Shown: positions 1-5,476 of the stretch, piece by piece | How positions within the stretch are numbered: position 1 is the stretch's first letter | Layout of the letters: every line of letters begins with the position of its first letter | Assembly: GCA_021826835.1 (NCBI GenBank) | Contig: JAKAYH010000134.1 | Coordinates: forward strand, 1 to 6,502 | Reading direction: 5' to 3' | DNA: 6,502 nt | From: Thermoplasmata archaeon | Lineage (GTDB): Archaea > Thermoplasmatota > Thermoplasmata > Thermoplasmatales > Thermoplasmataceae | Notes under the pieces: model-generated | What the model was told of the DNA's origin: nothing | What the model saw: the letters and a program-made list of their open reading frames with translations, nothing else | Databases searched by the model: none | Program-made: the position numbers and the translations under genes

Positions 1-648
1 AGATCTGAAATGCGAGGTAAGCGAATCCACAATAAGCAGTTTAATCGGAAACTCCTTTCCAAGCTCAATTGCCCTCTCAGCCAGAAGTATCTGGTGATGG
101 GAATTGTACGCCCTTGCCACATGTATTCTCTTCAGAACAGTGTCAGGATCAGCCCCTCTTGCTTTTGACATCTGAATTATCCTTTCCGGCCTGAATGTGT
201 TTTCTGTATCAATGATCAGTACATCAGAATCAAAACCACCCTGTTCCACTGGCATTGTTGCATTAACAGCAGCCTGGTGCATTATCTGTGTCTTTCCTGA
301 ACCGAACTCGCCAAAGAACTCCGTAATAGACTGAGTTTCAAAGCCACCACCCAGCAGATTGTCAAGATTCTTGCTTCCTGTACTGAGCTTCAGGACGTCT
401 TTTCTTCTTTCAAGTATCTGTTCTCCTGTTTCGAAGTTACCAATATCGGCAGACTTTCTGGCAGCAGCAATTATCTTGATTGCGGTTCCTTCAGCAATAC
501 CTGCCAGTTCCGAAAGGTCCTTAGGAGAAGCAACTGCAATGGTCATTATATCATCCAGTCCATTCTCTCTAAGTTTCTCTGCTGTTGCCTCTCCCACTCC
601 AGGGAGATCTTCGATTGTCATTTTTTTCTCTTCTTTGCTTCCTGCCAT
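1..648 (-). CDS. radA: DNA repair and recombination protein RadA (N-terminal 216 residues, 3' end outside window)
   Basis: RadA is the archaeal RecA/Rad51 recombinase, which forms ATP-dependent filaments on single-stranded DNA and catalyses strand exchange in the cytoplasm. Visible are an N-terminal helix-hairpin-helix region at about residues 12-62 ([15 protein letters not shown], then [14 protein letters not shown]), the linker carrying the subunit-interaction phenylalanine (NFETGEQ, F72, with Gly where many RadA proteins have FxxA), Walker A GEFGSGKT at 113-120, the conserved [11 protein letters not shown] and ARAYNSHHQ segments, and Walker B LLIVDS at 204-209. The window edge cuts the ATPase core just after SHFRS, so DNA-binding loops L1 and L2 and the C-terminus are missing. 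No intein interrupts the part seen. The start at 648 is chosen because AGGGTG lies 5 nt upstream and an in-frame TAA stands 17 codons upstream with no other start between; an internal ATG at 621 is less likely. Family assignment is firm. Confidence 0.97.
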
Positions 649-941: not shown

Positions 942-973
942 GAAAAATGAGAAAATGAGTTTTTTCGATCATC

Positions 974-1007: not shown

Positions 1008-1021
1008 TTTTTTTAAAAAAG
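1008..1021 (+). promoter_or_regulatory. Promoter of the large surface-regulator gene
   Basis: A run of seven T followed by six A (1008-1020) gives a TTTTAAAA-type TATA element. Transcription would begin about 26 bp after its centre, near 1041, so the mRNA would carry only about 7 nt before the ATG at 1048. AAGGT at 1029-1033 lies too far upstream of the ATG, and upstream of the predicted transcript start, to act as a normal Shine-Dalgarno site. Near-leaderless translation is therefore the simplest reading. Confidence 0.5.
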
Positions 1022-1047
1022 TATACATTAAGGTAATTCATTAATTT

Positions 1048-4000
1048 ATGAAAAAAATAGTTATTTTTGGTATATTGGTCATTCTGTTGGTCAATCTTGT
1101 TCCAGTAAGCACTGGGAATACCTATTCAGCTGGGACAGTTGATATGAGTGACTATAATCTTAATTTCAATTCATATAGTATAGGGTCATATCCAACCAAT
1201 CTCAGCTGGATCAATTTCCACAATGTAAGTCAACAGCAAAGCACCAAGATTTCTGTTGAAAATTCAAGCTTTGGAAAAGGCCTCCTGATATCTACAACCG
1301 CTTTCCGTAATGGGTCGGATTCATTCCTTGATATGGGAATGAACCTTTTCCAGAATTTTACAGTTAAAATAACATTCAGTTGGTCTGAAAACAACAGTCT
1401 TTCACAAACCGGGAATAACATATTTCTGGAAAATGATGCCAATAAAGTACTTCAGTACCAGTTTGGTAGCTATTACAAATTCAATCTCCTTTTGTCCACC
1501 AATAAAACATACCAGTTAGGAAAAGAACCATCGCCCTCAGAATTATATACGCTGCAGATTTCAGGAACTCATCAGGGAAGGAATCTGTTTGCAGGAATAG
1601 TCCCTGGTTTTAATAGCACAACGCACACTCCAATTCTTTTCATGAACAGGTCCCAGGCCCTTAACAACAATTACAGTTTCTTATTCGGAGGAGGGTTCTC
1701 TAGACTTACAATCTACAACATATATATCGAAAATGATATCAGTGGTTTTAGCACATTTGAGTCTGGACATTTAAAGACCTTTAATGAAACAAATATTTCA
1801 TCTGTTTATTTCTCAGGAATCAACGCTTCCCTATTTTCAGAACCATTAGTTGACTGGAAAGATAATTCCATTATATATGCGAGTGAACAGACTGGTCCTT
1901 ATCTATACAGCTATAATTTCTATAATAACACACAAAAAGACCTTCTTGGCCTGAATTCTTCTGAGCAGTTTATATCGACAGAAAGCACTTTTTATGACGG
2001 TTATTTCCTTATTGGTACTCCTTCAGGTTCAATTATTGAAGTTTACAATTATACCACCGGAGTTTTCAATCATTATAACATGGACTTCAACCCGGGAACT
2101 TATGCCAAGTTGTACATTTTGAAAGATACAGTATTTGTGCAATCAGAAAACGGGTCACTATGGATCTACAATACTACCTCAGGAAATACAGTCTCGAGCA
2201 TCTCCTTTCCCTCGGATGTTTTTCCTGTGCACTCATATTTGGGAAATAATTCGTTTATTACTGAGTTTTACAACAATACAACTGAAAACCTGTCTGTAAT
2301 AAAAATTTACCAAAACGGGAATGAAACTGTTCTTGCAACATATTATTTAGGGGAGGTTGATTTTAATCCGTCCTTCGAACGGAACGCTTCGCCTTCACTG
2401 ATGTCTGTAGCATCATATAACTATGGGGTCACCCCCTTATTCTATCTGCTGATGGGAGATGAGAACCTGCCATTTGTTTCGACTTCCAACTTTTCAGTGG
2501 CAGATAATCTTGGTTCAAGTCTATATGTCAGGAACAACACTGGAATTTACTTCATTGATCACAATTGCATTGCGTATACCAATGTAAATGCCAATTCACA
2601 GTTTGTGGCATTCGATAGAAACGGTTCCAGAGGACTCTCTATTGACAATAGAACCATAACTCTGTATTCAAATACTGGAAATCCTTTTTCACCCGATAAT
2701 ATCACCATAAAAAGCTCTGTTCCGGGCATTATAAGAGGAGACACCAGTATCAATTACACTGTCAACTCAAACCTAAACTATACCGTATCTGCAAAATTAG
2801 GGAATGTAGAGCTTTATCCTGAAAATGGGACCGTTAACATTTCTTCATCTTCCTTTGAAAACGGAACTCTAGAATTTTCCATCACCGCAACCAATATTGC
2901 TGGCTACACCTCAATGGTCAGAAAATCTGTGACTATAGACAATTACGAACCAACAGTCAAATTTAATTCCCAAAATGGTAGCCTTCTGTTTGAAGGTTCC
3001 AAAATAGAGTTTACAATAAGCAATATTCCGGGAAGCGTACACACTCATGTTAAGGAAGGGTCGGACATGCTTTTCAATTTTACAGGTTATGAGTTTAACC
3101 TGACTGTCCCTGAAAATACAGGCTCTCTCAGTGTTTCCCTGGAAATAATGGATCAGTTCGGACTATTGCACAATTTCACATACTTTTTCAATATAGAGAA
3201 TTTCAACAATTCTGGTTATAGGACCGATATTCTGCCTGGGGCATACCTTCCCCACGGAAAAATAAATCTCACATGGACCGGCACCTCAATAGCATCTTCT
3301 TACAACGTTACGTTGATTTCAATGAATAAGAGGATTGACTTCGAAACCAATGAAAATTATACGCACCTGAATCTTTTATCAGGCAATTATTTTCTTGAAA
3401 TTAACGCCACTACTACCTCTGATGCGACATTAACAATGCTGGAGGAATCATTTACAGTCCAGTCTTATAATCCTAATCTTACTGTGAATAGAACTTCGGG
3501 AAGATACTTCTCATTTTACGGAAATTCACCGAACGGAACACTTGTGATTAAGGCAAAAACCAACGTATCAAGCAGATTATGGCTCAATTACAGTTACAGG
3601 AATAAAAGTGTTGCATTTTACAGAGAAAATGGCACGTATCTGAATTACATCATAGACAGATCTTCAGGTCTATTCAAGGAAAATGGTCTCTACAATATAT
3701 CCATTAACGCCCAGGAAAATAGTGGCAGAAGTACTTCTATTCACTTCATCATTTCTGTAAATAATTCAATCCCCACTCTCATACCCGAAAACGACACACT
3801 TTACTTCAATACATCAACAGAACGTCTGCCCTTTCTGTTCCAGGACAACACCACTTACTGGTACAATACGAATGGGAATACCCATAACATTACAACTCTA
3901 AATGAGCCATATATAATTACCAATAGTTTCAGTACCGATATTTTACTTCACGCACTAAACAGGTGGCATGATTACAATCAGACATCTATTCATTTAATTT

Positions 4001-4794
4001 ACTCAAAGGAAAAACCAGAAATTTCCCTAAAAGCCTCTCCTACTGAATTGATCTGGTCCAGAAACCTCACTGTTTCATACAATATAACTGACCCGGTGGA
4101 ACTATCCAGTGTTGTTTTACTGATCAACAATCAGACAGGAATTTTAAGTAATGATACAACCGGCATATTCCATTATGAAGTGAGCGGAGATGGAAATTTC
4201 AGCCTTTCCATGACAGTCACAGATCGAAGTGGCAATGTGAACTCAACCGGTTATGTCATTGTAAAAAGCTTCTATTTCCCCGAGATAAAATCGATTCATC
4301 CAGAAGTGAAAAATTTTCTAGGTATAACCTATCTGAGAGCTGGAATAAAGGGAAAAGATCTGCAATCTGTTAATGTTACATGGAGCATGGGAGGAACGCG
4401 GATCGGCTCAGGCAACTCTCTCTGGACATTTTTAATGCCCGGTAACCATGTGCTCGTACTGACAGTGCATTATCATTCCAAAAATATCAGAGTACAGAGA
4501 AGAGTGTTTTCACTGGGATTTGTTCCGGAAGTCATTGGGATCTTTTCCATCACATCATTCCTTTTTTACCGAAAATATTGGGGAAAGGCAGATACAGTGA
4601 TGTCGAAGGAATTGATCAGCAATAATCTGGGAAAAACCAGGAAGGAAATTTATCGCATTGGAAGGAAATCAGGTTTGAGGAAGAGTACTGTTTCTGATAC
4701 AATAAACAGTATGCAGAAATCACGCGAAATTGTTCTGTTAAATGACCCTGATGGTGTAATTTATCTTATGGATCCTGGGTCTGCAAGTGAATAA
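1048..4794 (+). CDS. Giant sequon-rich surface protein with a C-terminal transmembrane helix and cytoplasmic winged-helix domain (putative membrane-tethered transcription regulator)
   Basis: This 1248-aa protein reads as an extracellular sensor fused to an intracellular DNA-binding domain. A signal peptide covers about residues 1-23 (MKK, then a hydrophobic core). Residues 38-230 resemble a LamG/concanavalin-like jelly roll (LNFNSYSIGSYPTNLSW). Residues 260-545 hold about six strand-rich, roughly 45-residue segments like beta-propeller blades (for example ENGSLWIYNTTSG). Residues 550-1145 hold about seven Ig-like modules with the pattern G-x-hydrophobic...D/N-x-x-G. A single membrane helix lies at 1154-1174 (GFVPEVIGIFSITSFLFY), followed by the basic RKYWGK and a short linker. 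Residues 1184-1243 look like a winged helix: MSKELISNNLG, TRKEIYRIGRKSG, STVSDTINSMQKS, then a wing REIVLLNDPDGVIYLM. I counted 64 N-x-S/T sequons, the last at 1109, and one cysteine (C507). The start is the first Met, close to the predicted transcription start. Ligand and target genes are unknown; the domain names are read by eye. Confidence 0.8.
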   Translation: MKKIVIFGILVILLVNLVPVSTGNTYSAGTVDMSDYNLNFNSYSIGSYPTNLSWINFHNVSQQQSTKISVENSSFGKGLLISTTAFRNGSDSFLDMGMNLFQNFTVKITFSWSENNSLSQTGNNIFLENDANKVLQYQFGSYYKFNLLLSTNKTYQLGKEPSPSELYTLQISGTHQGRNLFAGIVPGFNSTTHTPILFMNRSQALNNNYSFLFGGGFSRLTIYNIYIENDISGFSTFESGHLKTFNETNISSVYFSGINASLFSEPLVDWKDNSIIYASEQTGPYLYSYNFYNNTQKDLLGLNSSEQFISTESTFYDGYFLIGTPSGSIIEVYNYTTGVFNHYNMDFNPGTYAKLYILKDTVFVQSENGSLWIYNTTSGNTVSSISFPSDVFPVHSYLGNNSFITEFYNNTTENLSVIKIYQNGNETVLATYYLGEVDFNPSFERNASPSLMSVASYNYGVTPLFYLLMGDENLPFVSTSNFSVADNLGSSLYVRNNTGIYFIDHNCIAYTNVNANSQFVAFDRNGSRGLSIDNRTITLYSNTGNPFSPDNITIKSSVPGIIRGDTSINYTVNSNLNYTVSAKLGNVELYPENGTVNISSSSFENGTLEFSITATNIAGYTSMVRKSVTIDNYEPTVKFNSQNGSLLFEGSKIEFTISNIPGSVHTHVKEGSDMLFNFTGYEFNLTVPENTGSLSVSLEIMDQFGLLHNFTYFFNIENFNNSGYRTDILPGAYLPHGKINLTWTGTSIASSYNVTLISMNKRIDFETNENYTHLNLLSGNYFLEINATTTSDATLTMLEESFTVQSYNPNLTVNRTSGRYFSFYGNSPNGTLVIKAKTNVSSRLWLNYSYRNKSVAFYRENGTYLNYIIDRSSGLFKENGLYNISINAQENSGRSTSIHFIISVNNSIPTLIPENDTLYFNTSTERLPFLFQDNTTYWYNTNGNTHNITTLNEPYIITNSFSTDILLHALNRWHDYNQTSIHLIYSKEKPEISLKASPTELIWSRNLTVSYNITDPVELSSVVLLINNQTGILSNDTTGIFHYEVSGDGNFSLSMTVTDRSGNVNSTGYVIVKSFYFPEIKSIHPEVKNFLGITYLRAGIKGKDLQSVNVTWSMGGTRIGSGNSLWTFLMPGNHVLVLTVHYHSKNIRVQRRVFSLGFVPEVIGIFSITSFLFYRKYWGKADTVMSKELISNNLGKTRKEIYRIGRKSGLRKSTVSDTINSMQKSREIVLLNDPDGVIYLMDPGSASE

Positions 4795-4900: not shown

Positions 4901-5476
4901 ATGAAGAAGATACAGGTCCTCGCTGCAGTAGCGTTCTTTTCAGTATTCCTTATTGCATTAGCTCCAGCTTCATCTGCGGCTCAAACACCAACGCTTACAC
5001 CACCGCCAGCTACTCTCCCATCGATAACCTACTACATCAATGGAACATCAACATACGACAGTATTTCCAACACTCAGTGGCAAGTGTTATTCCAGGAAGT
5101 CTTCAACAACCACAACTTTGTAAAGTATAACTGGAGCCAGAACCTCACTGAGGATCTCATTGTGTTCGATCTTTCATATACAGGCCTTAACCCTTACGGT
5201 AATGCATTGATAGTTTCACTTTCAAACATTGGTTCACCTACTGTGCAGAATCTCTCTAAGGCCTTTAACGCAACAAAAAATGATCTTTCACTGGTTAAAA
5301 GCGGCGGAAATGCCATAACCAACATACAGGCACTGAATGGAGGAGCCTATCCGGGATTCAGCTGGTCCAAGATTACAGTTAAGTCTCTATCCGCAGAATA
5401 CAGAGATGTCGGCATCATAGTTGCTCTCATAGCGGTAACTTTTGTGCTTTACTTCTACTTCAACCGCAAGAAATGA
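4901..5476 (+). CDS. Small type I surface membrane protein of unknown function, 191 aa
   Basis: I do not recognise a family. Residues 1-27 form a clear signal peptide (MKKIQ, a hydrophobic core, APASSAA as a likely cleavage region). A short Pro/Thr-rich stretch (QTPTLTPPPATLP, 28-40) follows, like a cell-surface linker. The ectodomain, about residues 41-168, has five N-glycosylation sequons (N47, N77, N81, N117, N123) and no cysteine. One transmembrane helix covers about 169-187 and ends in the positively charged NRKK tail, so the protein is anchored by its C-terminus with the bulk outside. It has the same overall topology as the large protein upstream but no cytoplasmic domain. It lies 106 bp downstream with its own promoter. 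It might be a partner, ligand-binding accessory or regulated target of the large protein, but only proximity supports that. The start follows the predicted transcription start closely and begins a classical signal peptide. Confidence 0.85.
   Translation: MKKIQVLAAVAFFSVFLIALAPASSAAQTPTLTPPPATLPSITYYINGTSTYDSISNTQWQVLFQEVFNNHNFVKYNWSQNLTEDLIVFDLSYTGLNPYGNALIVSLSNIGSPTVQNLSKAFNATKNDLSLVKSGGNAITNIQALNGGAYPGFSWSKITVKSLSAEYRDVGIIVALIAVTFVLYFYFNRKK

Follow-up and report, generated by a model that had tools for sequence, protein, structure and literature searches.

The window analysed here, a stretch of 6,502 nucleotides from a Thermoplasmata archaeon of the family Thermoplasmataceae (contig JAKAYH010000134.1, assembly GCA_021826835.1), carries a gene for a very large membrane-tethered protein, referred to below as the giant. 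A preliminary description of this DNA proposed that the protein has a signal peptide, an ectodomain with a propeller and multiple Ig domains, one membrane helix near residues 1154-1174 and a winged-helix tail, and that it works as an outside-in switch. The anatomical part of that proposal has held up. The hydrophobic N-terminus is present and recurs in relatives, AlphaFold2 (AF2) models the propeller and the Ig-like stack, and AF2 together with hydropathy in 49 sequences places the membrane helix as listed below. The linker between membrane helix and winged helix is short, as had been claimed, although in the AF2 model it has six residues rather than about ten. The exported part is all-beta and rich in N-glycosylation sequons, and is probably glycosylated. 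On the Ig-like stack the Pfam profile Big_13 reaches 26.4 bits, below its cut-off of 27, and a single-sequence search of the full-length protein against the PDB gave no match at E<=1.

Features of the window, with nucleotide positions counted from its first letter.
Feature	Position	Strand	Basis
Giant membrane-tethered winged-helix protein, 1248 aa	1048..4794	+	ORF; orthologues; strong tail match in 70/117 genomes of the order
Signal peptide, residues 1-23	1048..1116	+	Hydrophobic N-terminus, also in relatives; read from sequence, no predictor
N-terminal beta-sandwich, about residues 35-235	1150..1752	+	AF2 model
Beta-propeller, residues 241-546	1768..2685	+	
Stack of Ig-like beta-sandwiches, residues 547-1150	2686..4497	+	AF2; sub-threshold Big_13
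Single membrane helix, residues 1159-1176	4522..4575	+	AF2; hydropathy in 49 sequences
Cytoplasmic winged helix, residues 1183-1246	4594..4785	+	Predicted fold
Promoter block holding the direct repeat AAATGAG-A-AAATGAG (945-959)	942..965	+	Conserved in L003, L004
Conserved stretch directly before start codon, likely core promoter	1011..1047	+	
P191, small exported protein with C-terminal membrane helix, frequent neighbour	4901..5476	+	
radA, divergent, partial	1..648	-	ORF, synteny; named from sequence, no profile

On which side of the membrane does the tail lie? The N-terminal signal peptide is followed by one membrane helix, and the tail should therefore be inside. The sequons point the same way. 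Across the 49 sequences, the part ahead of the membrane helix has 5.24 of them per 100 aa and the part behind it 0.41, a distribution that computationally supports a type I topology. The outside ectodomain and cytoplasmic C-terminus claimed earlier thus agree with the sequons, the signal peptide and the single helix. A simple hydropathy scan flagged extra segments in the ectodomains of some relatives (e.g., L008, L031, L036), and these are taken for buried strands, not membrane helices.

The tail had been described as showing a helix-turn-helix and wing pattern, and a structure prediction had been set beforehand as the check. AF2 predicts the winged helix with good confidence from the 49 sequences. 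The tail's best profile matches lie below the cut-offs. All 49 tails carry net positive charge. A single-sequence PDB search of the tail returned weak matches only, the best (E 0.53) being a PKR-like kinase domain entry. In a PDB profile search a designed protein at E 0.0005 was set aside as uninformative; next came an MCM chain at 0.038.

The giant is a conserved, single-copy family of the Thermoplasma order. Ten relatives were found in the database. Eight of them, of 1248-1250 aa, align almost end to end at 45-99% identity. A ninth is shorter, with 1077 aa and 48% identity, and the tenth is distant, with 26% identity along 58% of the query. The 99% copy of the gene is L001, from the metagenome-assembled genome LSA5.bin55, and a protein search with the tail alone returned just this copy. 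The whole protein as query matches 61 of the 117 genomes of the order at E<=0.001, and a profile built from the membrane helix and winged helix of 49 tails matches 73 at the same threshold. One strong tail match (E<=3.3e-14) is present in each of 70 genomes, a count that excludes the weak sole matches in G005, G006 and G026 and the weak matches in G046 and G047. Two weak matches were considered as paralogues and rejected. The one in G045 sits in a helicase-like protein (the G047 frame is as long), the one in G110 in a soluble protein resembling Lrp; both names come from reading the sequence. Among 389 sampled genomes of the phylum there were 32 tail matches at E<=1e-4, all from the same order, in a survey that scored at most 11 candidates per genome and could miss distant relatives.

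The size of the protein varies. The giant of G098 has 1140 aa, and L051:769-2940 encodes a 724 aa variant in which the central portion of the Ig stack is absent. Further open frames, 711-766 aa long, occur in G042, G044, G061, G062, G066 and G070; they may be real short forms or frameshifts.

What might such a protein do? Computation supports the family, the domain order, the fold of the tail, the sidedness and the one strong copy per genome. On balance the giant is probably a one-component, membrane-tethered, single-pass regulator of type I topology, for which DNA binding, dimerisation, a signal and target genes are presumed. With the N-terminus exported, the beta-sandwich, propeller and Ig-like stack would extend outward from the cell, and the single helix would hold the basic, 60-residue winged helix directly at the inner face of the membrane. 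When the propeller head meets a ligand or makes contact, the tails might be reoriented or paired differently via the Ig stack, and paired winged helices could then bind DNA at the membrane. That the giant is an "outside-in switch" and part of a "transcription system", in the words of the preliminary description, is what we infer.

Several observations weigh against a regulator. The window's tail reaches no Pfam or NCBIfam profile cut-off. When all 49 tails are taken together, Pfam's lowest E-value within the best 25 of 32 families is 0.0014, NCBIfam gives no match at 0.01, and a comparison of the tail with the PDB by Foldseek alone gives none at E<=0.001, the best being 0.017. Moreover, winged helices serve also as protein- or RNA-binding modules. 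The charges flanking the membrane helix favour an inner tail only weakly, as K/R are more numerous on the inner flank in just 30 of the 49 sequences (equal in 9, lower in 10), and in L001, the window's 99% copy, they speak against it, with 4 outside and 3 inside.

The remaining adverse points come from rates of change. Identities were taken from an alignment of 49 sequences (1176 pairs, 1031 of them within three bins), with the window's own row and P0011 left out. In the 927 pairs that are 18-28% identical overall, the winged helix is no better kept than the Ig stack (mean identity 0.243 vs 0.241), and within it helix 3 varies most (0.167). Helix 3 remains at 0.172 in the 41 pairs of 28-45%. 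In the same 927 pairs the N-terminal sandwich has a mean identity of 0.226, the propeller one of 0.149 and the wing one of 0.326. Sensor head and recognition helix thus both drift at long range, and a single fixed operator throughout the order is therefore disfavoured. Such drift would nevertheless be compatible with specific binding inside a clade. In close pairs (63, at 45-95%) helix 3 has an identity of 0.654 and the whole winged helix 0.648.

A regulator is the most likely of the explanations considered, and its main rival is an anchor. What if the giant is a structural or adhesive surface glycoprotein? In this hypothetical scenario the basic winged helix would fasten it from inside to a cytoplasmic protein, to the acidic lipid face or to DNA without sequence preference, for example to tether the chromosome. 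This is judged rather unlikely. The integrin-like layout of the exported part would suit it, as would the presence of one copy in each of the 70 genomes. The recognition helix varies between distant relatives whereas basic residues in helix 2 are common to most of the 49 tails. Structural neighbours of the tail also include winged helices of protein complexes (Rpa2 with primase or PolD, and the CUL1 WHB with DCN4). However, the 49 sequences retain the wing turn and the hydrophobic core positions all along the winged-helix domain, and a whole winged helix would seem superfluous for a mere anchor.

Another explanation is that the tail is a latent transcription factor, freed by intramembrane or juxtamembrane cleavage to act in the cytoplasm. 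The six-residue linker leaves little space at the membrane, which would favour release, and a partly conserved G-F-x-P-E borders the membrane helix on its outer side (G 38/49, F 19/49, P 35/44, E 19/44). However, inspection of the neighbouring genes, confined to the window, revealed no intramembrane protease, and known tethered regulators are believed to work from the membrane (PMC10269533). Release by cleavage is improbable.

How does a tethered regulator of this kind compare with known systems? Bacteroides hybrid two-component sensors combine propellers, a Y_Y_Y Ig domain, a kinase and an HTH (helix-turn-helix). Like them, the giant as modelled would connect a propeller and Ig-like sensor across the membrane to a DNA-binding-type output, and one of its relatives, L014, reaches 20.9 bits with Y_Y_Y, short of the 26.6 required. 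No kinase or receiver Pfam match was found in the giant up to E 1. The predicted layout of the exported part, with a propeller and Ig-like sandwiches, is also reminiscent of integrin alpha chains. Unlike integrin alpha, the giant ends in a winged helix, and the two share 7-9% identity, with a large rmsd (root-mean-square deviation) over the whole. The resemblance of the model is likely convergence, and since similar folds can arise independently at such low identity, the giant is not counted among the integrins.

ToxR, CadC and TcpP also tether a winged helix via one membrane helix. They have an N-terminal DNA-binding domain and a small periplasmic domain, a topology opposite to that of the giant, whose N-terminus is a signal peptide and exported part, not a cytoplasmic winged helix. 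ArnR and ArnR1 of Sulfolobus are archaeal, membrane-bound helix-turn-helix regulators, as the giant would be; they are not known to have a giant ectodomain. PMC13286277 places the helix-turn-helix of ArnR in the N-terminal region, whereas the giant's domain is C-terminal, so this feature of ArnR is not shared.

The closest kind is that of the transmembrane transcription regulators (TTRs), a known class of membrane-tethered regulators (Demey et al., 2023; PMC10269533). TTRs, like the giant, combine a membrane helix and a predicted DNA-binding-type domain in one polypeptide. Unlike them, the giant has this domain at the C-terminus, after a signal peptide and more than 1100 exported residues. A predicted transmembrane region is present in the giant, and by its modelled fold the tail counts as a predicted DNA-binding domain, although a fold in common says nothing of function. 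However, by the method of the 2023 census a profile match is needed, and MarR_2 scores 15.2 bits on the window's tail against a cut-off of 27. The giant is therefore TTR-like by anatomy and not a member by the census's own profile criterion. A Pfam-based census may miss it because its winged helix scores below the profile cut-offs.

The preliminary description also suggested a system not yet described. This stands for the family and fails for the kind, since membrane-tethered regulators are well known (PMC10269533). No published system of the giant's layout or family was found in the open-licence literature, a body of work that mostly leaves out subscription journals. The family is apparently undescribed; it resembles a known kind in its workings, and its topology and size are unusual.

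The habitat of Thermoplasma and its relatives is hot acid, and most of them lack a cell wall. How they sense their surroundings is little known, and the giant is relevant there; if it is truly a regulator, one protein might carry an outside signal to genes. A bolder version is tentative and less likely than not: most genomes of the Thermoplasma order would have retained one copy of a hitherto undescribed receptor, in which an integrin-like propeller and Ig ectodomain is joined straight to the winged helix and turns surface contact or polymer binding into transcription at the membrane, with no kinase or second messenger involved. The giant also offers a compact test case for signalling by tethered regulators via one helix and a six-residue linker. 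Profile-based censuses may overlook regulators of its type, and so the true archaeal number could be larger.

Finally, there is the promoter. The block at 942-965 is conserved even in comparison with genomes where the giant has about 48% identity to that of the window, and its tandem motif is real. In six genomes, with 0-3 bases allowed between the halves, there were 31 matches vs 1 for the reversed control. With one base between, there were 64 matches in 30 of the 117 genomes (G001 and 29 others) vs 3 for reversed controls. Fifty loci fetched around matches represent 49 distinct sites. At 28 of these an ORF of at least 50 aa begins 45-51 nt past the motif in the orientation CTCATTTnCTCATTT, and at 1 in the other orientation. 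The ORFs encode mostly small proteins, among them a family of 116-157 aa, an AbrB-like protein of 55 aa and proteins of 58-67 aa (named from sequence). The tandem motif CTCATTTnCTCATTT looks like an order-wide regulon of another regulator. Among 30 upstream regions, shared 7- to 9-mers are barely above Markov shuffles.

The 116-157 aa family (L137:1566-2030 and relatives) occurs in 76 of the 117 genomes, has no Pfam match at E 0.01 in the 6 members scanned, and carries the motif or a variant in many genomes. Its upstream region was examined in 70 of the 76. At least 12 of the 14 motif bases precede the gene in 30 of 51 giant-bearing genomes (control 1) and in 7 of 19 without a detected giant (control 0).

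That the giant reads the motif AAATGAGnAAATGAG of its own promoter, and that the motif-bearing genes are its regulon, is very improbable. The motif does stand 88 nt before the start of the giant, in the other orientation, in G001, G080, G081 and G084, all four from the window's clade, and in G093 a copy spaced by two bases is found 102 nt upstream of the giant. However, the G093 copy is also 50 nt before a divergent GAPDH-like gene, the motif's usual place, and outside the window's clade no giant has an exact one-base-spacer match. Helix 3 differs among genomes that have the motif in common. In the G026-G040 block, where no giant was found, 11 of 14 genomes have at least 11 of the 14 bases before the same target gene (reversed control 0 of the 19 genomes without a detected giant), and in 13 of the 14 the best match lies at 57-58 nt; these genomes are related and hence not independent. 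The motif seemed strong at first as the giant's operator and was dropped, because a variant precedes the same target gene in genomes without a detected giant. Most likely it is read by another, older regulator.

The neighbourhood was compared in 29 loci of the closest relatives (L003-L031), with flanks of at most 1.5 kb. Downstream of the giant, the window has P191, then a Mut7-C RNase-domain protein and pelota. P191 follows on the same strand in 25 of the 29 loci, and in most loci it resembles the window's copy more than the giant does. Several tethered regulators have an associated protein (Table 1 of PMC10269533). P191 is a possible counterpart of the ToxS/TcpH-type partners, but it is present in 110 of the 117 genomes, and 42 of those 110 have no strong match to the giant. 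Of the 70 giant-bearing genomes, 47 have P191 no more than 1.5 kb from the tail, on its strand in 43 and on the opposite one in 4. In 5 others the distance is 1.5-10 kb, in 3 it is greater although the contig is the same, in 13 P191 is on another contig, and in 2 it was not found. As an obligate partner P191 was rejected, given the 42 genomes and its non-adjacent position in 21 of the 68 having both.

Upstream, radA lies on the opposite strand in 26 of the 29 loci; among those without it, L005 and L027 begin at contig edges, and the upstream flank of L015 is short. Since radA is Ta1104 (PMC5177888), the giant would, by gene count, be Ta1102. A simple pattern, which undercounts, detects a divergent GAPDH-like N-terminus upstream in 14 of the 29. 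In the window's clade no GAPDH-like gene lies between radA and the giant. One does in L006-L012, L014, L015, L019, L022, L024, L026, L028 and L240, and the giant of G098 adjoins both a GAPDH-like gene and radA (named from sequence).
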